From IMG/VR virus record IMGVR_UViG_3300036399_000097, positions 1-49,107 of that record: a DNA stretch of 49,107 bases; one strand, given 5' to 3'. The position numbers and the translations under genes are program-made. Origin of the DNA: a virus. Positions 4,134 through 47,909 of the stretch are shown here, in pieces. Position 1 is the first letter of the stretch. Each line of letters begins with the position of its first letter. The notes beneath the pieces are model-generated. The model was not told the origin of the DNA. It worked only from the letters and a program-made list of their open reading frames with translations, and ran no database searches.

Positions 4134-6887
4134 ATGCAGATATATTCAGCAATGGATTTGAAAGCCGGTAAAAAGGCGGAACATAATAAGATGGGTACTC
4201 TTACCCAACCTATCCAATTTTTACCTGAGAAAGAGAAAGATGATGAATGGAGAGCTTGGAATCTAGACTGGTTAGAGTGGCAGGGTATGAAGCAACTTAG
4301 ACGTAACGCTCGTAGATTAATGAAAAACTACAAGCTTGCTAAGGGTATCATTGACAAGACAGATTATATTGTAGAAGAGGATAATGAGATGGCGGATCTA
4401 ATAGATACGCTAACTAAAGAAGATGAGTCTGCTTTAGAACTTAAGTTCTATCCTATTATTCCTAACGTTGTAAACGTATTATGTAATGAGTTTTCTAAAA
4501 GAAGCTCACGTATTATGTTTAAGGCTGTGGATGATATCTCTTATAATGAGCTTATAGAAGAAAAACGTAAGATGCTTGAGGATGTTCTTTTACAGGATGC
4601 TCAGCAAAAGATGATGATGGAAATCATGAATCAAGGTTTAGACCTTGAGGATGAGGAAGTTCAGAAACAAGTTCAAGAACAAACATCTCCTGATAATCTA
4701 AAGAAGCTTCCTGAGATAGAGTCTTTCTTTCGTAAAGACTATAGATCTATGATTGAAGAGTGGGCATCTCACCAAATGTCTGTAGATGAGGAACGTTTTA
4801 AATTACAAGAATTAGAAGAGCGTGGCTTTAGAGACATGCTTATTACAGATAGAGAGTTCTGGCATTTTAATATGATGGAGGATGACTATGAGCTAGAGCT
4901 TTGGAACCCATTGCTTACGTTCTATCATAAGTCTCCAGATGTTAGATACATCTCTCAAGGTAACTGGGTCGGTAAGATGGATATGATGTCTGTATCAGAC
5001 GTTATTGATAAGTTTGGATGGATGATGAACGAAGAACAAATGTATTCGTTAGAAGCCATCTATCCTGTTCGTTCTGCCGGCTATGCTGTACAAGGATACC
5101 AAAATGATGGTAGTTATTACGATGCTACAAAGTCACATGAGTGGAATACACAAATGCCAAGTCTTGGCTATAGACAGTTTTCGTCTTTATATGACACTAA
5201 GTTTGGTACAGGTGATATTGTAGAATGGATCCTATCTGATTCAGAGGATACAATAGATTTTGGTAAGTCACATTTATTACGTGTATCCCAAATTTATTGG
5301 AAGTCTCAACGTAAAGTGGGTCACTTAACTAAAATTACAGAAGAAGGAGAAATCTTACAAGATATTGTAACTGAGGAGTTTAAATTAACAGATAAGCCTC
5401 AATACAATACAACATTGTATAAACAAAAGACTAAAGAAAACTTAATCTTTGGAGAACATATTGATTGGATTTGGATTAACGAAACTTGGGGAGGTATTAA
5501 GATTGGACCTAACCGTCCCGCATTCTGGGGAAATAATAACGCAGGTGGTATCAATCCAATCTATTTAGGACTTAATGGTGGTAAGCCAGGAAGACTACCT
5601 TTCCAATTTAAAGGAGATGCTACACTCTATGGCTGCAAACTTCCAGTGGAAGGTTGTGTTTTTGGAGATAGAAATACTAGAAGTACTTCATTAGTTGATC
5701 TAATGAAGCCTTACCAAATAGGCTATAATATAGTGAATAACCAAATAGCAGATATCTTGGTTGATGAGCTAGGTACGGTTATCATGTTAGACCAGAACTC
5801 TTTGCCTCGTCACTCCATGGGAGAAGATTGGGGGAAAAATAATCTGGCTAAAGCCTATGTGGCAATGAAGAACTTCCAGATGTTACCGCTTGATACAAGC
5901 ATAACTAACACTGAGAACGCTCTTAACTTCCAACATTATCAAGTGTTGAACTTAGAGCAAACTAATCGTTTGCTTTCTCGTATACAATTGGCAGGTCATT
6001 TTAAAAACCAAGCCTTTGAAACTATTGGTCTTAACCCACAACGTATGGGCCAACAGATTGCTCAGCAGCAAACAGCCACTGGCGTAGAGCAAGCTATGAA
6101 TGCTTCTTATGCACAGACAGAGCAGTATTTTATTCAGCACTCTGATAACTTAATGCCTCGTGTACATCAGCTTAGAACAGACTTAGCTCAATACTATCAT
6201 TCTAAAAAACCTAGTGTTCGTCTTCAGTATATCACTGGTAAAGATGAAAAGGTTCATTTTGAAATGAATGGTACAGAGCTACTTATGAGAGATCTTAACA
6301 TCTTCTGTACAACAAAGACTAATGCTCGTTCTGTAATGGAGCAACTTAAACAGTTGGCTATAAATAATAATACTACAGGAGCATCTATATATGATCTTGG
6401 AAATGTTATTAAGTCTGAGTCTATTGCTGAGTTAACTGGTGTACTTAAGAATGCAGAAGAGAAGGTACAGTCTCAGAAAGAAGCAGAAATGCAGCAACAA
6501 CAGCAAATGCAGCAAGAGATGATACAGTCTCAGGAGAAGCAAAGACAAATGGATCTTGACTTTAGAACAGGCCAAGCAGATCTTGATAGACAAACTCAGA
6601 TCACTGTGGCTGAAATTAGAGCTGCAGGTTATGGAGCAGGCGTAGATATTAATGAAAATAAAGTGTCTGACTACCAAGATGCCTTGGAGACGATTCGTGG
6701 TGAACAACGTTACCAAGATCAAATGAATCTTAAGCGTGAGTCCGAGATGAATAAGAAGATGCAGGTAGATCAGAAGCTTAATATAGACCGTGAAAAGTTA
6801 CAAACACAGAAACAAATAGCAGATAAACAACTTCAGATTGCCAAAGAAAATAAGAATAAATACGACTCTGGTAAGAAAGCTAAATAA
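4134..6887 (+). CDS. Portal protein
   Basis: 917 residues, next after TerL, as in crAss-like phages where portals run to 800-900 residues. The portal would form the dodecameric ring at the capsid vertex through which DNA is packaged. The N-terminal third has Trp-rich (WNLDWLEWQG) and helical segments (YPIIPNVVNVLCNEF). The middle is mixed alpha/beta. From about residue 773 to the end there is a long Gln/Lys/Glu-rich coiled coil containing a run of five Gln, which matches the extended portal tails of this group. An alternative start is Met7 (ATG at 4152). The call rests on length, order and pattern. Confidence 0.85.
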   Translation: MQIYSAMDLKAGKKAEHNKMGTLTQPIQFLPEKEKDDEWRAWNLDWLEWQGMKQLRRNARRLMKNYKLAKGIIDKTDYIVEEDNEMADLIDTLTKEDESALELKFYPIIPNVVNVLCNEFSKRSSRIMFKAVDDISYNELIEEKRKMLEDVLLQDAQQKMMMEIMNQGLDLEDEEVQKQVQEQTSPDNLKKLPEIESFFRKDYRSMIEEWASHQMSVDEERFKLQELEERGFRDMLITDREFWHFNMMEDDYELELWNPLLTFYHKSPDVRYISQGNWVGKMDMMSVSDVIDKFGWMMNEEQMYSLEAIYPVRSAGYAVQGYQNDGSYYDATKSHEWNTQMPSLGYRQFSSLYDTKFGTGDIVEWILSDSEDTIDFGKSHLLRVSQIYWKSQRKVGHLTKITEEGEILQDIVTEEFKLTDKPQYNTTLYKQKTKENLIFGEHIDWIWINETWGGIKIGPNRPAFWGNNNAGGINPIYLGLNGGKPGRLPFQFKGDATLYGCKLPVEGCVFGDRNTRSTSLVDLMKPYQIGYNIVNNQIADILVDELGTVIMLDQNSLPRHSMGEDWGKNNLAKAYVAMKNFQMLPLDTSITNTENALNFQHYQVLNLEQTNRLLSRIQLAGHFKNQAFETIGLNPQRMGQQIAQQQTATGVEQAMNASYAQTEQYFIQHSDNLMPRVHQLRTDLAQYYHSKKPSVRLQYITGKDEKVHFEMNGTELLMRDLNIFCTTKTNARSVMEQLKQLAINNNTTGASIYDLGNVIKSESIAELTGVLKNAEEKVQSQKEAEMQQQQQMQQEMIQSQEKQRQMDLDFRTGQADLDRQTQITVAEIRAAGYGAGVDINENKVSDYQDALETIRGEQRYQDQMNLKRESEMNKKMQVDQKLNIDREKLQTQKQIADKQLQIAKENKNKYDSGKKAK

Positions 6888-6996: not shown

Positions 6997-8256
6997 ATGA
7001 CTGATTCTCAAACCAGTGTACAAACAAACGTACAACAAGTTGATCTTGACATTGATAGTTGGCTAGGAGCCCCAGGTGCAGATAGTATAGTTACTCCTGC
7101 TAAAGATGAAAAACCTAGTATTTTTAGCCAAAAAGTTCAAGATTTTAGTTTCTTAGATGAAGAAGATAATGATGATTCAACATCTAGTGATGACACAAAA
7201 GATACAGGTGAAAAAAAGCTTGTAACAAAAGAAGATACAGATAGTCTTCTTAAAGAGTTAACTGATGATGAAGATGATTCATTTGAGTCTAAATCAAAAG
7301 GAGGACGTCCTAAGACAGAAAAGTCTGGATTAGTAGAGTTTCTTAAAAAGCGTATAGAGTCAAAGGAAATGTTTGCCTTTGATGACTATGATGAAAAGAA
7401 ACAAAGTCTTGATGACTACTTAGGTGGTCTTGGAGATAAAGACGTTGAAGAGTTGTGGCAAGCTAACGTAGACAATATGAAGTCTGAGGTGGCAGCTAAG
7501 ACTCCTCAAGAATTCTTTGAGTCTTTGCCAGATGAATTGCAATATGCAGCAAAGTATGTAGCAGACGGTGGGCAAGATCTTAAAGGTCTTTTCCAGGCTT
7601 TGGCTCAAGTAGAACAAGTTCGTGAGATGGACCCTACTGACGAGAATGACCAAGAAGGTATTGTAAGATCTTATTTACAAGCTACTGGTTTCGGTACAGC
7701 AGATGAAATTGAAGAAGAAGTTTCTACATGGAGAGAAATTGGATCTTTGGAAAAGAAAGCTAAACAGTTCAAACCAAAGTTAGATCAAATGCAAGAAGAG
7801 TTTGTACAAGCGACTCTTGCAGAACAAGAATCTAAGAAAGAACAGCAAGAGCAGGCAGCTCAAGCTTATATGCAAAATGTGTTTGAAGCACTTCGTCCAG
7901 CTGAGATTAATGGTCTTAAGCTAGATAAAAAGACTCAAGCTCAATTATATAGTGGATTGGTTCAACCTCAATATCCATCTATCAGTGGTCGTCCAACAAA
8001 CTTGTTGGGTCATCTTTTAGAGAAGTATCAGTTTGTAGAACCTAACTATCCATTGATTGCTGAAGCTCTATGGTTACTTTCAAGTCCTGATGAGTATCGC
8101 TCAAGCCTTACTAAGCAGGGAAAGAACCAGGCGGTAGAGCAAACTGTACGACAACTTAAGACTGAACAGTCACGTAAGAATGTTAGTACTTACCAAGAAG
8201 AAGAAGAGACTAGATCTAGAAAAATATCTAGACCTCAAAATATTTTTAAAAGATAA
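6997..8256 (+). CDS. Acidic scaffold-like head assembly protein
   Basis: 419 residues between portal and major capsid protein, the usual place for a scaffold. The first 100 residues or so are very acidic and disordered-looking, with runs of Asp, Glu, Ser and Thr. The middle and C-terminal parts are rich in Gln, Glu and Lys and predicted helical, with a coiled-coil segment around residues 245-290. Scaffolds are usually highly charged helical proteins that fill the procapsid and then leave, so composition and position agree; no sequence family is recognised. The start is preceded by the A-rich leader AAAACCAAACAAAT, also seen before the genes at 10099 and 14360. Confidence 0.7.
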   Translation: MTDSQTSVQTNVQQVDLDIDSWLGAPGADSIVTPAKDEKPSIFSQKVQDFSFLDEEDNDDSTSSDDTKDTGEKKLVTKEDTDSLLKELTDDEDDSFESKSKGGRPKTEKSGLVEFLKKRIESKEMFAFDDYDEKKQSLDDYLGGLGDKDVEELWQANVDNMKSEVAAKTPQEFFESLPDELQYAAKYVADGGQDLKGLFQALAQVEQVREMDPTDENDQEGIVRSYLQATGFGTADEIEEEVSTWREIGSLEKKAKQFKPKLDQMQEEFVQATLAEQESKKEQQEQAAQAYMQNVFEALRPAEINGLKLDKKTQAQLYSGLVQPQYPSISGRPTNLLGHLLEKYQFVEPNYPLIAEALWLLSSPDEYRSSLTKQGKNQAVEQTVRQLKTEQSRKNVSTYQEEEETRSRKISRPQNIFKR

Positions 8257-8287: not shown

Positions 8288-9907
8288 ATGGCAACTCCAG
8301 TTTTAAACAATGGTATATTTCTACGAGATACCAGCTATGCAACTAGCTCACATGTAGATTCTTACCACCTTTCTAACCTCTTAAAGTCTGCTGAACCTAC
8401 TGATTTAGGTCCAGTTGATTTATGGGCAATGGCACAAAAGGTAGAAATGCCTTTATACCAAATGTCTAGCTTTGGCGGTAAGAACGTTATCTCAGTAGAT
8501 AATGCACGTGGTGAGTACAAATGGCAGATCCCAGTAACTCAGGATCTACCTTACGTTATTGAAGACGTAGAATCCGCTAATGCTACAAAAGGTATTGACG
8601 GACAGAGTTTCAAAATTAAGATTAACAAGCGTTCTTTTGGACATGGTGATATCATCACTTATGACAAATACAACGGTGTTGAGATGTACATCACTGCTGA
8701 CGATATTATCCCAGCTGGTGACGGTTTTATCTACACAGTACAACTTGTTAATAATGACAACGCTAAGTATTTGGATAACAAATATCTTAAAGTTGGTACT
8801 AAGGTTTTCCGTAAAGGATCTGCTCGTGGTGAATACGGTGAGCGTTTCTCTGATATCGGTAACGTTAATGCAGGTTTCCGTGAATTCTACAACTATGTAG
8901 GTGGTGCTGAAGCTCACGTTCATTATTCTGTTAGCTCTCGTGCTGACTTGATGTTGAAAGGTGGATTGAAAGCTGATGGTACAGTTCCTGTAGTAGAGCT
9001 TTGGAGAAACTTTGACAAGTCTAGTGATCCTTCTATTACAAACCTAGAGGACATGGCTTCTAAAATGGGTAAAGATTATGTAAAGAAAGCTTACCAATCT
9101 GGTCAGTTGACTCGTACATTCTTAACCGCTATGGAAGCAGCTCATTTGACTAAGATTGCTAATGACATTGAGACTTACCTTATGTGGGGTCAAGGTGGTA
9201 AAGTTAAGCAAGATGGTCCAGATGATATTCGTTTATCTGTAGGTCTTTGGAAGCAGTTGGATAACTCTTACAAGCGTATCTACAACAAAGGCTCTTTCAA
9301 CTTGGATCTATTCAAGTCTGAGATTTTCAACTTCTTTAATGGTAAAGTTGAATTCCAAGGACCAGATCCTAAGCGTAGCTTAGTTGTACAAACAGGTCTT
9401 GGTGGTATGAAACTTGTTAATGAAGCTATTAAGCGTGAGGCTATTAACTCTGGCTTGGTAATTAATGCTTCTGAAGTTGGTGCTATCACTGGCAAAGGTA
9501 TGGACTTGAACTTTGGTTTTGCTTACACTCAATACGTTATTCCTTTCTTGGCTAACGTTAAGTTTGTATTGAACCCAGCGTTTGATAACATTCATACTAA
9601 TGACATTGAGAACCCAATCATTGATGGTTTCCCATTAAGTTCTTACAATTTTATTATCTTTGATGTAACTGAGAATACTAATGACAACATCTACTTGTTG
9701 AAGTTATCTTGGGATAATCAATTGAAATGGTTCTATCAGAACGGTACTATGGATTACATGGGACGTTCTCAAGGCTTCCAGTCTTCTGGAAACTTTAACG
9801 GTTACCGTGTATTCATGACACAAACAATGCCTGCTATTTGGGTTAAAGATCCAACTAAAGTGTTGAAGATTGTTATGAGAAACCCTGTAACTGGTGGATC
9901 ATTCTAA
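8288..9907 (+). CDS. Major capsid protein
   Basis: 539 residues following the scaffold-like gene. The N-terminal region (NNGIFLRDTSYATSSHVDSY) and overall pattern match what I know of crAss-like HK97-fold capsid proteins, with a beta-rich inserted region around residues 130-220, helices around 270-310 and a strand-rich end. Codon use is strongly biased to GGT, GCT, AAC and TAC, as expected for the most abundant virion protein. The leader ACCCTTAAACTTTATGCCCT before the ATG is nearly shared with the gene at 12288. An upstream out-of-frame ATG at 8281 is ignored. A long structured untranslated region follows. Confidence 0.88.
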   Translation: MATPVLNNGIFLRDTSYATSSHVDSYHLSNLLKSAEPTDLGPVDLWAMAQKVEMPLYQMSSFGGKNVISVDNARGEYKWQIPVTQDLPYVIEDVESANATKGIDGQSFKIKINKRSFGHGDIITYDKYNGVEMYITADDIIPAGDGFIYTVQLVNNDNAKYLDNKYLKVGTKVFRKGSARGEYGERFSDIGNVNAGFREFYNYVGGAEAHVHYSVSSRADLMLKGGLKADGTVPVVELWRNFDKSSDPSITNLEDMASKMGKDYVKKAYQSGQLTRTFLTAMEAAHLTKIANDIETYLMWGQGGKVKQDGPDDIRLSVGLWKQLDNSYKRIYNKGSFNLDLFKSEIFNFFNGKVEFQGPDPKRSLVVQTGLGGMKLVNEAIKREAINSGLVINASEVGAITGKGMDLNFGFAYTQYVIPFLANVKFVLNPAFDNIHTNDIENPIIDGFPLSSYNFIIFDVTENTNDNIYLLKLSWDNQLKWFYQNGTMDYMGRSQGFQSSGNFNGYRVFMTQTMPAIWVKDPTKVLKIVMRNPVTGGSF

Positions 9908-11126: not shown

Positions 11127-11828
11127 ATGAATAATAATCTCTTACAAATTAAGATAAAACAGAGGCTTAATAAACTAGCATCTTTTGATTATGACAACAT
11201 AGAATGTTGGATGATCCAAGAAGCTTTTAATAAAGCTCAGTTAGAGTGGGTGCGTAGACGCCTCCACGGTCTTAATGCATCTAGAGAAGCATCAGAGCAA
11301 AGTGTAACAATAGTTGATGATGTACAAATTCTTTTAACAGAAACACCTTTAGGTAGAACAATAAAAGATAAGTTTGTAGAATCAGATTCTTTACCTACTA
11401 ACTTTTTACATTTTGTAAGAGTTAGCGGTAACGCCAAGACTGAATGTTGTCCAGAAAGAGCTCTTTCTATATATCAAGCTGAAGAAGCTAACGTAGACAT
11501 TCTTTTGAGTGACAAGTTTAAATCTCCAAGCTTTGATTGGGCAGAGACTTTTTGTACGATAGCTTCTGATAAAATTAGGTTATATACTAATAATGAGTTT
11601 GATATAGAAGATATTAAACTTACATATTATAGGCTTCCTAGAGATGTGCAGTTTAATGGTTGTACTAATATATCTACTGGAGTAGTATTTAGAGCTGATC
11701 AGACATGTGAACTTAAAGAAGACATATGTGAAATATTAGCAGACGAAACAGCAGCTATTTTAGCTGGAGACATAGAATCTATAACTCAGTATCAGAGAGA
11801 TATACAAAACGCTCAAAGAAATAGCTAA
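11127..11828 (+). CDS. Ring/head-completion-like protein
   Basis: 233 residues. The N-terminal helices (KIKQRLNKLASFDYDNIECW, then EAFNKAQLEWVRRR), a beta-rich core and a C-terminal helical stretch (ICEILADETAAILAGDI) recall the ring/connector proteins that stack under the portal in crAss-like virions and head-completion proteins of podoviruses. It contains a Cys pair (TECCPERA). Two proteins of similar design lie at 41404 and 42078. The stop overlaps the next start by one base (taATG), so it is probably translationally coupled to the Dps-like gene. The ring assignment is inference. Confidence 0.6.
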   Translation: MNNNLLQIKIKQRLNKLASFDYDNIECWMIQEAFNKAQLEWVRRRLHGLNASREASEQSVTIVDDVQILLTETPLGRTIKDKFVESDSLPTNFLHFVRVSGNAKTECCPERALSIYQAEEANVDILLSDKFKSPSFDWAETFCTIASDKIRLYTNNEFDIEDIKLTYYRLPRDVQFNGCTNISTGVVFRADQTCELKEDICEILADETAAILAGDIESITQYQRDIQNAQRNS

Positions 11829-12241
11829 TGATGCAGAAACTACAAAGACCTAGTCCAATGGGACCATGTAAAGAAACAGCAGCAATGTTAGCACATGCTC
11901 AAGCTCTTACAACTAGTATGCACCAGTTGCATTTAAAAATTACTGGTCCTGGTTCTTTTTCAGCACATAAAGCTCTTAATGAGTTTTATGATGGAATGCC
12001 AGATTTAGTAGATGCTGTAGCTGAACAATACCAAGGAGCTCGTGAGAAGCTTCTAGATTTCCCGGCAGTGAGCCCATATAAATGTGGTTCTGTACAGGAA
12101 GCAATATCTCACATGAAAGAACTATATACAGAAGTTAATGAGTTACAAAAGATTATGCCTTTTTCAGAAGTTGTAAACCAACTAGATGAGGTTAAGAGTT
12201 TGATTGCTTCAACCAAGTATAAGTTAATGTTCTTAAGTTAA
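11828..12241 (+). CDS. Dps/ferritin-like protein with ferroxidase-type residues
   Basis: 137 residues. The segment MHQLHLKITGPGSFSAHKAL...YDGMPDLVDAVAEQYQG looks like the helix A to helix B region of Dps-like ferritins. His35, His47, Asp62 and Glu66 are spaced 12, 15 and 4 apart, exactly the spacing of the Dps ferroxidase ligands (His51, His63, Asp78, Glu82 in E. coli Dps). The C-terminus (VVNQLDEVKSLIASTKYKLM) suits the last helix. It is shorter than typical Dps (about 155-170). Dps proteins bind DNA and oxidise iron in 12-mer shells; a related phage family (DUF5856) is ferritin-like. Its place in the head cluster suggests a virion or genome-associated role, which is inference. Confidence 0.6.
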   Translation: MMQKLQRPSPMGPCKETAAMLAHAQALTTSMHQLHLKITGPGSFSAHKALNEFYDGMPDLVDAVAEQYQGAREKLLDFPAVSPYKCGSVQEAISHMKELYTEVNELQKIMPFSEVVNQLDEVKSLIASTKYKLMFLS

Positions 12242-12287: not shown

Positions 12288-13646
12288 ATGTATTTTCCTA
12301 ATGCATTCCGCAAGTCATTCTTGCCTGCTAGTACAACACTAGCAACCACTGGTGGAACTGATGCTTTGACTGCTGGACAGATTGGTTTCTTTGATGCCAA
12401 GTCTTTTCAAGTAGTTTCTGCTCAAGCTGCACCTTTTATCATGGCTCAAGGTAGTTACTTTGCTGCTGACAAAATTGGCCCCACTCATGGTGGTTACAAA
12501 GAGTCAGTTAAGTCTAAAGTGATTAACCCTAAGTACATCAGTCGTTTGATTAAAGTGACATCTGATGTTGCTCAAAATCAAATTGTATCTGTAGATCCTT
12601 CTACATGTACACTTAATTGTGATTCTACTTATCGTCTACGTCTAGATGTTAAAGGTTCACCTGCTTTACGTTTCGTAAGCCATAACCTTTATGACACCTT
12701 GGACGGATTCACAGGTTGTTGCACTGTACCTGGTACTACTAACACAGTAGACCAAAACGTAGTGTTACTTCAGTGGAAAGATCAGATTAATGAATCTCTT
12801 TTGTTGAAAGAGCTTGTTCAAGCTAAGGTTTGGAACTTAACTACAGCTTCTGTAGCTATTGATCCAACTGCTGCTTCTGCAACTATTGCTGTAGCTAACG
12901 CTGATGCTGCTCTTTTCCAAGTTGGAGAGAAAGTAGTTCATGCTTCTTTGGCTCCTAACTCAATCGTAGTATCTATTGGTGCTGCTGATTCAGCTAGTTC
13001 TGGTAATGCAAACGTAGTTCTTTCTGTTGCTGCTGTATCTTCTACAAACGGTAATGCTAAGATCTATAGTGAAATTGCAACTAGTACTTATGTTCCTGTA
13101 ACTTCTTCTGCAAATAATATTGCTGCTGTAGATTCTCATTTAGCTATTGCTGCTGCTTATGTAGAGACTAAGTTTGGTACATGTACCTTTACTCCTACAG
13201 ATTTCTATGGTTTAGAGCCTTTATTCATCTACACTTCTTTTGTAGAAGAGTCTGGTGAGCCTTGTGCTGTAAACTGTTTTGTATCTGCAGAAATTCAAGC
13301 TCCTAAGCAAGCTTCTGGTTTGGGTGAAACTGTACTTCGTGAATTGATCTTAGATGGTCGTTATTTACAAAACGCATATCCTGATAGCTCTCGTGTAGAT
13401 AGCTTACGTATGCGTGAGATCGAAGCTGATCCAGCTTTGAACACTGTAAATAAGGCTGCTTTGTATGATCAAGTTTTGATCTTGCACAATGTACCTCGTT
13501 TTAACAACCCAACAAGTACTTTTGATAATGATCAGTATTTGATCGTAGTTCACGTACCGGCTGGTACTGCAACCACTTCAATTACTAACTTCATTGTATC
13601 TAGTGCTAGTGCTGCTGGTAATGCGGTTGCTGTAGAGACTTACTAA
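12288..13646 (+). CDS. Abundant-type virion structural protein
   Basis: 452 residues, similar in pattern to proteins starting MYFPNAF found in phages of Bacteroidota; the exact role is unknown to me. The N-terminal part (GQIGFFDAKSF, KVINPKYISRLIKV) and C-terminal part (LILHNVPRFNNPTSTFDNDQ) look like a conserved core. Residues about 180-270 are an Ala/Val/Ser-rich beta domain that may be an inserted Ig-like fold. Codon bias equals that of the capsid gene, suggesting high copy number, and the leader before the ATG (ACCCTTTAAATTAAAGCCCT) closely matches the capsid leader. A strong terminator follows. Auxiliary capsid or tail tube-like roles are possible. Confidence 0.7.
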   Translation: MYFPNAFRKSFLPASTTLATTGGTDALTAGQIGFFDAKSFQVVSAQAAPFIMAQGSYFAADKIGPTHGGYKESVKSKVINPKYISRLIKVTSDVAQNQIVSVDPSTCTLNCDSTYRLRLDVKGSPALRFVSHNLYDTLDGFTGCCTVPGTTNTVDQNVVLLQWKDQINESLLLKELVQAKVWNLTTASVAIDPTAASATIAVANADAALFQVGEKVVHASLAPNSIVVSIGAADSASSGNANVVLSVAAVSSTNGNAKIYSEIATSTYVPVTSSANNIAAVDSHLAIAAAYVETKFGTCTFTPTDFYGLEPLFIYTSFVEESGEPCAVNCFVSAEIQAPKQASGLGETVLRELILDGRYLQNAYPDSSRVDSLRMREIEADPALNTVNKAALYDQVLILHNVPRFNNPTSTFDNDQYLIVVHVPAGTATTSITNFIVSSASAAGNAVAVETY

Positions 13647-37717: not shown

Positions 37718-38842
37718 ATGGCTAATCAACTAACTATAAACTTTACTGCAGCAGTACCAGCACCTTCTAGTGGATATCTAGTTAGGTATTGGGAAACTTC
37801 TACGCCTGGAACAGTTTTAACAACAACTGTTACAAGTAGTCCTGCTGTTATTACTGGTTTAGCTGGTTATAACTATACAGGTACAATTGAATCTGTATGT
37901 AGTTTTGGTAACTCTACAAGAGTGAATTTTACAGATGCAGTTTGTAATGTAACATTTAATGTTTCTTCTACTTCTCCAACTAACCAAGGTGGTACTAATG
38001 GTACAGCTACAATTAGTAATATTGTAGGAGGATCTGGAACATATACATACAGTTGGAATACAGTTCCAGCTCAGACAACAATTACAGCTACTGGATTAAC
38101 AGCTGGTCAAACCTATGTAGCTACAGTTACTGATACGATTACTGGTTGTGTAACTACAGGAAATATTGTAATTGGTCAGACAAACTTTACGTTTGATGCT
38201 GACTACATGGTGATTACTTATCAGTTTAGTGATGGAGTAGATTTAGATACACGTACAAGAATTGTATCTATTGATGGTACAACATATCCAGATCAAAATG
38301 GTCAAGATAAGCATATTGGATTTGATCAGTATAATGCAACACCATCAAATGCAACTTATCCAGGAGAAGAAACTGTAGCTAATATGTGCGGTTTAGGTAC
38401 TCAACCATTAGCAGTATGGGGTGGAGATAATAGAGGTCAAGGGTTTGAAACTGTAATGATTGACTTTACTCAACTTGGTGCAGGACAAAATCAAGTGGTG
38501 ATAGACTGCCGTGCTTTATGGTGGGTGAATGTTGGTACTAATCCTGTTAATATAGGTTTTACACTTTATAAAGGTGGTTGTATGGTTAAGCAAGGTCGCA
38601 ATGGTTCTCCAGCATATAGTTTTACAAATATTGGATATACGGCAACTTTAACACAAGCTTCTGCTAGTAAAGTGATTACAGCTTTTAATAATAATAGTGT
38701 AGCTACAGGATCTTCTGATTTAGAAAACCCTAATATTTATGCTGGTACATCAAGAGGTCAGCGTTTAGCTGTTATTACATATAACAGAAGTACAAACGTA
38801 GGTAATATAAATATTAATGATACAACAACTCCTGTAGTATAA
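37718..38842 (+). CDS. Adhesin with FN3-like domain and SprB-type repeat
   Basis: 374 residues in three parts. Residues 1-75 are an FN3-like domain (PAPSSGYLVRYWETSTPGTV). Residues about 80-148 are a SprB-type repeat (TNQGGTNGTATISNIVGGSG, YTYSWN, GLTAGQTYVATVTD, TGC), a family named for the flavobacterial gliding adhesin SprB. Residues 150-374 are a distinct beta-rich C-terminal domain (MVITYQFSDGVDLDTRTRIV, LAVWGGDNRGQGFETV) likely to be the binding head. The stop overlaps the next ATG. Strong hint of a gliding flavobacterial host; receptor unknown. Confidence 0.75.
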   Translation: MANQLTINFTAAVPAPSSGYLVRYWETSTPGTVLTTTVTSSPAVITGLAGYNYTGTIESVCSFGNSTRVNFTDAVCNVTFNVSSTSPTNQGGTNGTATISNIVGGSGTYTYSWNTVPAQTTITATGLTAGQTYVATVTDTITGCVTTGNIVIGQTNFTFDADYMVITYQFSDGVDLDTRTRIVSIDGTTYPDQNGQDKHIGFDQYNATPSNATYPGEETVANMCGLGTQPLAVWGGDNRGQGFETVMIDFTQLGAGQNQVVIDCRALWWVNVGTNPVNIGFTLYKGGCMVKQGRNGSPAYSFTNIGYTATLTQASASKVITAFNNNSVATGSSDLENPNIYAGTSRGQRLAVITYNRSTNVGNININDTTTPVV

Positions 38843-46300: not shown

Positions 46301-47909
46301 AGGCTACCGTGATCATGATGATCAGATAGAACGTAGGTTCTATGATCCATATGGGTATGCCGATATAGATATGATGTTTAGAAGTGACACTATTAAGAGT
46401 GGGGAAATATATAAGTATGACTATTCTTTAAGTGTATCTAAACTATTCAATAGTCACATCTCTTGGGGAAACATCCTACCTAGAGATTATGATCCTAAAG
46501 TTGCTGAAAAGTGTTATGTATATAATCCTAACCGTGTAATATATTCTTTACCACAGTTTAGTGAATCTAAAAAAGATAACTGGAGATTATACTTAGCCAA
46601 TAACTATAAAGAGTTCTTATCACCTGTAACATCTATTAAGTCAATTAATAGAACAGGTGCCTTGTTTATGATGAAGCGTCAAAGTCCTATGCAGTTTATG
46701 GGCGTAGAGGAACTTAAGCTTGACGGTACAGGAGCTAAGATTACTATTGGTGACGGAGCATTGTTTAATGATAGAGGCACTCAACAGTTACAAGCTGTAG
46801 TCAATGCAGAAGAGTCATTTGAATATGGCTCAAACCAAAGTAGGTATGCTTCAATGAATACTTCTTATGGTGTATTTTGGGTTTCTCAAGATCAGGGTAA
46901 AGTGTTTGTATATGGTGGTGGTATTAAAGAGATTTCTAAGGATGGTTTAAAATGGTGGTTTGCTAGATATTTACCTAGTGAACTTCTTAAATCATTCCCT
47001 TCTTTTCCATTATCAGATAATCCTGTAAAAGGAGTTGGCGTACAGATGATCTTTGATAATACTAATGAGATATTGTACATCACTAAAAAGGATTACAAGC
47101 CATTATTTACAGACTTAGTTCTAGAGGGTGAAAGATTTTATCGTATAGTAAATGGAGCTAAGACTTATTATAACTTAGAGTCAGAAGCTTTTCAACCGGC
47201 ATCTTTTACAATATCATATGATCCTAAGTCTCAAGTTTGGTTGTCATTCCATGATTGGATTCCAACATTCTTGTTGCCAGGTAAGGCTCATTTCATGAGT
47301 GTTAATAAAGACACTATATGGAAGCATAACATCCGTTGTGATAAATACACTAACTTCTATGGTATAGACTATCCATTTGAGATAGAGTTTGTATCTTCAA
47401 CTGGTCAAAGTGTTAACTCAATGAGAAGTGTTGAATATATATTAGAAGCTTATAAGTCTCACAATAATTGTTCAGATAGGTTCCATGTATTAGATGAAAA
47501 CTTTGATCAAGCTATTGTTTATAACTCAGAACAAGTATCTGGTTTACTAGAACTTGTTATAAAGAGTAAAACTAATCCTTTAGATATGCTTACATATCCA
47601 CAGGTGGGAGCTCAGTCAATAAAGATTAACTTCTCTAAAGAAGAAAATAAATATAGATTTAATCAGTTTTGGGATGTGACTAAAAACCGTGGAGAGTTTA
47701 CAGGCGGCAATGTTCCTATGTTTGTAACTAAACCTAATGGTTACCAATTTGATATTAACGCTCAGTATGTTAACTATCAAAAGCCAGCATTAGAACATAA
47801 GAAGTTTAGACATCATTCTAACAGAGTGTTTCTTCGTAAACTTAAAAGCAATGACGTTAAGTTCTTGTTTAAAATATCTAACTTAAAACTCTTACAATCA
47901 CCTAGGTAA
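43326..47909 (+). CDS. Muzzle (stabilization)-like tail protein
   Basis: 1,527 residues. The N-terminal region (NTTNTFTKGMVKDFND, ARNAVNNSHDGQIGVIGNE, YTVIGCIHLSEDQWAVFTTD, RLVYWDDARNPSRFIDID) matches the crAss-like stabilization/muzzle protein family as I know it: a large beta-propeller-containing tail nozzle that caps the ring stack (gp44 in phage crAss001). A hydrophobic helix lies at about residues 703-730 (GGAIVFGIQLALKIATTAAV), possibly a fusion- or pore-related segment or a buried core helix. A further beta region occupies 780-1450, with a basic end. The start overlaps the metallopeptidase gene and the stop overlaps the next ATG. Confidence 0.82.
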   Translation: MAEQTQTPGSNTTNTFTKGMVKDFNDTFIGEGLWTHARNAVNNSHDGQIGVIGNEPANLFCVQLPYTVIGCIHLSEDQWAVFTTDDVNSEIGVFDESACTYKKVINDPCLNFNRSSLITGAYRKRYDCERLVYWDDARNPSRFIDIDNPPLKTRNVVVDGCITEVPLTPIQLDCEAIRIASLVTTPCINLAKGKVGGMLPNGSYQAVIAYTIAGVKVTDYLGISEVQSLFSHENTSLSLEITITSIDKNFDEFELAILSNINNQSTAKKIGVYSTAQGTIYLDKWSTEYETIPVSQIVVRKESVEKTDDMYTVNDYLIRIGTTSKFKFNYQPQANSIKTNWVSVQYPANYYYKGGNNTGYMRDEQYAFFIRWIYNTGDKSESYHIPGRLPLATDRDSMVGGDAFETIGSSAVSRQRWQVENTATIDSVTTSTLPDGGVMVATGQMGYWESEEKYPDRAFNIWGPLCGKKIRHHKMPDNTIIGGDVINHFSANGASINVLGVKFNNITHPLDNAGNPILSIIGYEILRGSREGNKSVIAKGMLNNMREYNLPGTTTVKGLYQNYPYNDLRPDQYLTSNKDIAYKGYSTDKKEDPLTVYKNNTFSFHSPETTFSNPFMNVQELKVYQEIHGKVEGKFTEPFKHPKFKMANNFLSTITDVLVIIDSINRLQALFSGQGGVKIAATDDFPIELNYGIPKNPEPAAGIGGAIVFGIQLALKIATTAAVLVLEKRLADLKKEKLISMFLYLVPKKQYALQYLSHAFYNNSTRNIRGNIRKEITDSSYIRTGVHGFGANYRVNNFYRNQYVILETSTDLLKTGTQSGITDDSRQLYHDANVNINDTFVTNTVAYYGAIKIPMVSQYGQLDSIKQLPLSSCVEFTQPDKTKKYTSEICFGGDVYINRFTERNTMFYFNTWLMGEPDEIEFDYRNHFATTYPRYWVNSKRIDGELLKDVAREHRHLNGNSSQGVSFYVKNRHFYLFNSGVRDFFVESEINVGYRDHDDQIERRFYDPYGYADIDMMFRSDTIKSGEIYKYDYSLSVSKLFNSHISWGNILPRDYDPKVAEKCYVYNPNRVIYSLPQFSESKKDNWRLYLANNYKEFLSPVTSIKSINRTGALFMMKRQSPMQFMGVEELKLDGTGAKITIGDGALFNDRGTQQLQAVVNAEESFEYGSNQSRYASMNTSYGVFWVSQDQGKVFVYGGGIKEISKDGLKWWFARYLPSELLKSFPSFPLSDNPVKGVGVQMIFDNTNEILYITKKDYKPLFTDLVLEGERFYRIVNGAKTYYNLESEAFQPASFTISYDPKSQVWLSFHDWIPTFLLPGKAHFMSVNKDTIWKHNIRCDKYTNFYGIDYPFEIEFVSSTGQSVNSMRSVEYILEAYKSHNNCSDRFHVLDENFDQAIVYNSEQVSGLLELVIKSKTNPLDMLTYPQVGAQSIKINFSKEENKYRFNQFWDVTKNRGEFTGGNVPMFVTKPNGYQFDINAQYVNYQKPALEHKKFRHHSNRVFLRKLKSNDVKFLFKISNLKLLQSPR

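Follow-up and report, generated by a model that had tools for sequence, protein, structure and literature searches.

The window analysed here, a stretch of 49,107 nucleotides, derives from a freshwater crAss-like phage and encodes, among its head and tail-barrel genes, a Dps-like mini-ferritin whose predicted ferroxidase residues are invariant in all relatives examined. The gene holds a fixed position behind the ring gene, is exchanged for a full-length ferritin in related phages, and its product begins with a leader peptide resembling the C-terminal tail of a putative scaffold protein; each of these points, like the fold class of the protein, was shown by computation. The interpretation we favour, with a probability of roughly 0.5, is that a peptide mimicking the scaffold docks a ferroxidase cage into the head during its assembly, and that the cage is carried in the particle. 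The features concerned are collected in Table 1.

Table 1. Location of the mini-ferritin gene, its predicted functional residues and the neighbouring structural genes within the window.
Feature	Position	Strand	Basis
Dps-like mini-ferritin (DUF5856 / PHROG_858), 137 aa	11828..12241	+	Pfam, PHROG, phmmer against PDB, AlphaFold, Foldseek against PDB
N-terminal leader MQKLQRPS, residues 2-9, core K-[I/L]-x-R-P	11831..11854	+	Leader scan, matrix ranking, model confidence
H32 and H35 (H-x-x-H, helix A); H35 a predicted ferroxidase ligand	11921..11932	+	Invariant in all homologues examined
H47, predicted ferroxidase ligand, helix B	11966..11968	+	Conservation
D62 and E66, predicted ferroxidase ligands, helix B	12011..12025	+	Conservation
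Ring (tail-barrel adaptor) protein gene	11127..11828	+	PHROG_29507; csAssE-Sib ring protein, 32%; adjacency
Putative scaffold-like protein, 419 aa, pI 4.5, in the portal-capsid interval	6997..8256	+	Position and composition; role inferred
C-terminal peptide KISRPQNIF of the scaffold-like protein, leader-like	8221..8247	+	Motif comparison
Major capsid protein (Crass_capsid)	8288..9907	+	Pfam, 3.8e-30
Portal protein	4134..6887	+	PHROG_6547, 3.3e-89
Next gene of the structural cluster, downstream border of the slot	12288..13646	+	Same order in related loci

The open reading frame is real and had been placed correctly by an earlier sequence-only reading, which took its product for a Dps-like ferritin-fold protein encoded in the phage head cluster. 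The genes around it are of crAss-like type and run in the order terminase, portal, a 419-aa acidic protein, major capsid protein, a 339-aa protein (ORF10099), ring and mini-ferritin; with the terminase (PHROG_6681), the portal and the Crass_capsid genes following one another just upstream, the description as a head cluster is accurate. The preceding gene, which had been called ring-like, deserves that name, with matches to the annotated ring protein of csAssE-Sib (E 6e-14) and to PHROG_29507, ‘virion structural protein’; against the PDB its product gave only lectin matches that look like chance. Its TAA stop codon (11826-11828) overlaps the ATG of the mini-ferritin gene by one nucleotide, making the translational coupling that had been claimed for the two genes plausible. 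Elsewhere in the window, a tRNA-Cys (gca) gene is present at 984-1055, between a short open reading frame and the terminase gene. Among isolates, Leptolyngbya phage Lbo-JY46, a cyanobacterial phage with crAss-like gene order, has the closest capsid protein (28.5% over 99%), and a protein of the fibre region (37718-38842) gave weak SprB-repeat and fn3 matches below the cut-off, a hint of a Bacteroidota host.

The Pfam profile DUF5856 (PF19174) matched residues 43-133 of the mini-ferritin with an E-value of 1.6e-18 (68 bits against a cut-off of 34.6), which settles a family membership that had been put forward for checking, and PHROG_858 matched at 6e-23. The name of the latter, ‘starvation-inducible transcriptional regulator’, is found on many records and in our reading reflects the resemblance to Dps. 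Likewise, a phmmer search of the PDB returned chains of the Dps family (best E 7.5e-6) with the four proposed ligands in register. The structure predicted by AlphaFold from an alignment of 42 sequences (pLDDT 92.3, pTM 0.86) is a four-helix bundle with helices at residues 14-37, 43-72, 89-109 and 113-135; a run without alignment reached a pLDDT of 48.6 and was discarded. When this model was compared with the PDB using Foldseek, all 50 of the 50 matches listed were Dps or Dps-like cages (best E 3.9e-3, probability 1.00), with TM-scores by query length mostly between 0.55 and 0.77. The structure matches in BFVD included ‘prohead protease’ proteins of 333-763 aa from uncultured phages (A0A6J7WPK9, A0A6J7WIS1 and A0A6J7XDU5), which suggest Dps-like domains fused to head-maturation proteins.

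His35, His47, Asp62 and Glu66 occupy the positions assigned to them in the sequence-only reading, with the 12/15/4 spacing given there, and the pattern H-x11-H-x14-D-x3-E occurs a single time when the window is translated in all six frames (98,210 residues), in this open reading frame. Together with His32 they are invariant in the window phage's group (70 of 70 distinct proteins), and the same five residues are invariant in homologues of unrelated phages at 24-36% identity, namely those of Methylophilaceae phage P19250A, Klebsiella phage KP27, Kuttervirus PM10, a spring-water myovirus and T4. This invariance and the shared register with Dps chains argue that the four-residue pattern is not a product of chance. 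The C-terminal helix is also strongly conserved in the Dps-like proteins. Two outcomes would have refuted the Dps-like reading, a fold other than a four-helix bundle and poor conservation of the four residues; neither was met, since a bundle is predicted, the matches listed are all Dps or Dps-like cages and the residues do not vary, and the reading is supported.

The protein has in common with bacterial Dps the four-helix bundle, the ligand set with its spacing and the fold matches in the PDB, but it is shorter and lacks two characteristic traits: the short helix between B and C that is typical of Dps was not modelled at residues 73-88, and the Trp that follows the second His of H-x-x-H in Dps is replaced by Leu36, which is invariant in the 70 group members. 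Moreover, the Pfam Ferritin profile (PF00210) remained below its gathering score (15.7 against 24.5 bits). For these reasons the protein was classed as a Dps-like mini-ferritin of DUF5856 and not as Dps proper. Assembly into a dodecamer, in which the ligands of Dps are shared across the two-fold interface, and oxidation of Fe2+ with H2O2 or O2 are inferred, the prediction being of a single chain. HP-NAP and E. coli Dps served as yardstick sequences; the HP-NAP alignment was duplicated from a database, and no conclusion rests on either. A search of genome contigs with the alignment returned no relative, so that no cellular origin can be named.

The position of the gene was followed in 80 loci collected via the capsid protein and not via the mini-ferritin gene. 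A Dps-like gene lies directly 3′ of the ring gene in 41 of the 43 decidable loci (those with a ring gene and enough downstream sequence); one of the two exceptions has a ferritin in this slot (L136) and the other (L143) has neither. Related loci keep the order major capsid protein, ORF10099, ring, Dps and next gene, and in some relatives, with up to 4.9 kb inserted between ORF10099 and the ring gene, ring and Dps remain together, at a distance of -1 to 155 nt that is mostly the one-base overlap. Three more distant crAss-like relatives of equal gene order (csAssE-Sib, Cellulophaga phage phi17:2 and Leptolyngbya phage Lbo-JY46) lack the Dps-like gene, suggesting that it probably joined the cluster later, in the ancestry of the window phage's group. 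The usual view of Dps genes in phages is that of metabolic passengers; in this large freshwater crAss-like group, such a gene belongs to the head/tail-barrel cluster almost without exception. In one of the loci (L161:35-3001), the terminase large subunit is enlarged to 988 aa in frame, with an internal intein-looking stretch near the GEGK...TTTS motif.

The ferritin occupying the slot (L136:12767-13366) is a full-length one (Pfam Ferritin PF00210, 1e-19, 71.3 bits), and its closest solved chains are bacterial non-heme ferritins. Searching with it led to further phages (L177-L195, L200-L203, L205 and L206), in which the ferritin gene starts -1 to +21 nt after the ring gene. The expected ferroxidase-centre residues (QE, EE..H, HE and EQ.EE) are invariant in 17 slot ferritins, and one locus (L185) carries ring, ferritin and Dps genes consecutively, both cage genes with the leader. 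A capsid-protein tree of 78 rows requires at least six exchanges between Dps and ferritin, five of them forced by well-supported branches; the tree includes rows obtained from the Dps and ferritin searches, and frequencies taken from it are not unbiased. The alternation of two iron-oxidising-cage proteins in one slot is our strongest argument that iron chemistry is the selected property. Furthermore, because related phages use a ferritin with the same leader, we propose that the slot requires a ferroxidase cage with leader and not one particular protein. The sequence-only reading had offered an open-ended list of functions, from which iron oxidation or uptake gains indirect support in that the full ferritin found in the same slot of sister phages keeps its ferroxidase residues; coating of DNA gained none, a judgement resting only on the pI of 6.2. 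That reading had included neither the leader peptide nor the ferritin exchange nor the relation to T4 RI.-1.

The Dps-like protein and the ferritin begin with a common leader, K-[I/L]-x-R-P, behind which lies a variable linker. The leader of the window reads MMQKLQRPSPMG; Dps leaders include MMQKLQRPSP, MALTKIPRP, MIKTIPRPSP and MQKISRTNIF, ferritin leaders include MQKIARPTIF, MAIQKIPRPTIF, MKTIPRPTVF and MEIKKISRPSVL, and the neighbouring genes of L185 specify MQKIVRPTVF (ferritin) and MQKIPRPSVL (Dps). The first ten residues of the mini-ferritin were modelled with low confidence (mean pLDDT 55), and the leader is probably flexible. The strict pattern was found at the N-terminus of 53 of the 1,623 open reading frames of the loci, comprising 46 Dps-like proteins, 6 ferritins and 1 other. 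The acidic protein encoded between portal and capsid ends in a similar peptide, RKISRPQNIFKR in the window (scaffold tail SRKISRPQNIFKR) and, for example, RKIARPTNIFKR and RKLVRPTNIFKR in relatives. It had no family match in the PHROG search, and its identity as a scaffold is putative, being inferred from position and acidity.

A matrix derived from the scaffold C-termini alone was scored on the N- and C-termini of every protein family that had five or more members (52 ends). Behind the scaffold C-terminus itself, the Dps N-terminus ranked 2nd and the ferritin N-terminus 3rd; the chance of two named ends taking those places is 1 in 1,275, uncorrected for the resemblance having been noticed post hoc. 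The reverse matrix, built from Dps leaders, placed the scaffold C-terminus and the ferritin N-terminus 2nd and 3rd. Most ferritin relatives outside the window phage's group have no leader, and about half of the 17 slot ferritins carry another basic leader (e.g. ILKRSLK) that scores under the 99th percentile. As the Dps and ferritin leaders could have a single leader as their ancestor, they do not count as fully independent. At the C-terminus of the terminase, single sequences (RPPRNPFKNMR in the window; MKIPRNPFKNLR in some relatives) resemble the motif, but this end was not among the top family ends and was not counted.

These observations can be joined in the following scheme. The gene product would be a Dps-type mini-ferritin that oxidises Fe2+ and stores iron in a small cage, encoded among head and tail proteins and probably produced together with them. 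Its leader may imitate the C-terminal peptide of the scaffold, and would compete for or share the site of the scaffold tail on the capsid or portal protein; such docking or binding is inferred. N-termini face outward in both Dps and ferritin cages, so that 12 or 24 leaders could meet a docking partner. The cage might thereby be built into the head, at the capsid or portal interior, and transported in the particle, where it could keep free iron and peroxide off the packaged DNA or deliver iron to the next infection, although both its presence in virions and any such benefit are likewise inferred. Against packaging it must be said that no virion of the window phage's group has been analysed, that the motif is short and its match to the scaffold was noticed post hoc, and that the other candidate virion cargo proteins of the group carry LPKAQ and not K-[I/L]-x-R-P.

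Virion evidence exists for a homologue only. Mass spectrometry of CsCl-purified virions detected gp217 of phage Sajous1 with 10 spectra, and the authors modelled this protein as a ferritin (PMC10892097); we found it to be a DUF5856 homologue with all five residues and without a leader. The same authors cautioned about cell debris, saw no TonB or FeoB dependence and proposed a tail-located ‘ferrojan horse’ (PMC10892097). The spectra are few, and Sajous1 belongs to another virus family; as far as a homologue can serve, gp217 lends independent support to presence in the virion.

A further homologue is RI.-1 (MobD.6; L061:2459-2845) of T4, which shares the five residues with the window protein but is only 24% identical, has no leader and is encoded behind rI. 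T4 rI.-1 is known only as a lysis-inhibition accessory, whose over-expression slightly delays the collapse of lysis inhibition (PMC6832632). That it falls into a mini-ferritin-like family in which the putative ferroxidase site is fully conserved offers a lead in a very well-studied virus. Elsewhere, the members of DUF5856/PHROG_858 examined have the same invariant H..H, H, D and E set but are encoded next to genes for lysis, nucleotide metabolism or the tail and carry no leader, whereas the window phage has a leader-bearing gene fixed in the head/tail-barrel cluster. In P19250A, the DUF5856 gene and the start of an annotated holin gene overlap (L059:11962-12803), which is reminiscent of rI.-1 beside rI in T4.

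The distribution of these homologues bears on a different explanation, which we regard as possible if rather doubtful, in which the ferroxidase is made late, remains unpackaged and acts only inside the cell. It would mop up iron set free as host proteins are degraded, consume peroxide and protect replicating phage DNA, with the leader serving as a DNA- or membrane-binding tail or persisting as a relic of the exchange. Gut-phage Dps and Mn-catalase have been assigned such a role in a published proposal (PMC8008677), and the DUF5856 homologues of T4-like phages lie outside the structural modules, beside rI, while that of P19250A adjoins a holin gene. Left unexplained, however, are the persistence of the gene beside the ring gene despite insertions and exchanges, the likeness of the leader to the scaffold C-terminus and its retention across the exchange. 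The neighbourhood of lysis genes, the five residues kept by T4 RI.-1 and the slight effect of rI.-1 over-expression (PMC6832632) would also suit a factor of lysis timing, as suggested for T4 rI.-1; yet in the window phage's group the gene sits in the head/tail-barrel cluster with no holin or antiholin identified beside it, and can be replaced by a ferritin, and this explanation is the one we can credit least.

Replacement by ferritin also counts against two further proposals. A Dps-like protein condensing DNA, coating the packaged genome with its basic leader as a DNA-binding tail, would accord with the Dps fold and with the K and R of the leader. It appears improbable, given that the protein has a pI of 6.2, that a swap for full-length ferritin, a family not defined by DNA binding, would be unexpected, and that a conserved, patterned leader resembles docking more than mere charge. 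Structural co-option, in which the four-helix protein became a connector or assembly factor without iron chemistry, could account for the very tight linkage to the ring gene and for the strong conservation of the C-terminal helix. We nevertheless hold it to be very improbable, as few residues besides the four ligands stay invariant down to 24% identity and the replacing ferritins retain intact ferroxidase residues.

For the favoured reading, that of a cage docked into the head and packaged, the nearest working analogy is the encapsulin with its ferritin-like cargo (IMEF system, PMC6668986), where a ferritin-family protein, a short terminal peptide and an HK97-fold shell are combined in the way proposed here. 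In encapsulins, the peptide is C-terminal and the shell is their own and empty, whereas the window phage has a DNA-packaging head and an N-terminal peptide whose docking is unproven. An encapsulin-like DNA phage head of HK97 fold, into which an N-terminal scaffold-mimic peptide brings an iron-oxidising cage, mini-ferritin or ferritin interchangeably, to act as an iron store or peroxide sink in each virion, is a tentative extension that we would put somewhat short of even odds.

Phage Dps genes are already known, e.g. from gut phages, and crAss-like phages with Dps can be found by database name (cr106_1 / ctDAq1). Like these, the window protein is a phage-encoded Dps-type protein, in a crAss-like genome as some of them are; for the Dps of the gut-phage ‘Gratiaviridae’, neither a ferritin exchange nor a leader is described in the accessible part of the source (PMC8008677). 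In the searchable literature, outside which many subscription papers lie, we came across no account of Dps and ferritin being exchanged within a structural cluster, of a peptide shared by leader and scaffold tail, or of T4 RI.-1 as a mini-ferritin. The interchange of mini-ferritin and ferritin, and the peptide in common with a putative scaffold, point to ferritin cages as virion cargo, and allow proteomics and elemental analysis to address directly whether phage particles contain iron (‘Ferrojan Horse’). Should the leader be a packaging signal, it would amount to a short tag by which protein cages could be brought into the heads of crAss-like phages.

The cargo-like proteins encoded downstream of position 47909 of the window were examined for the K-[I/L]-x-R-P leader, which is absent from them; they share the LPKAQ motif instead. 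In related loci (L229:26-8643, reverse complement, and L230, L232, L233 and L234), large cargo-like proteins encoded downstream of a muzzle-like gene begin with LPKAQ or a similar sequence (e.g. MKIRITKKGLPKAQ and ..MSRLPKAQMG), possibly a second packaging or docking tag.

Ferritin genes also occur among the structural genes of two other crAss-like groups. In one (L197:5486-9810), the gene follows the portal gene by 4 nt and precedes the gene upstream of the capsid gene; the ‘KNPF’ of this ferritin recalls the terminal ‘NPF’ of the protein encoded upstream of the capsid, and no claim is made of it, the stretch being the ferritin family's own pre-helix segment. In the other (L204:7977-13923), the ferritin gene is situated between a muzzle-like gene and two large cargo-like genes, and the ferritin and the two cargo-like proteins begin alike, with MKTLKR, MKKLKR and MKKLKK.
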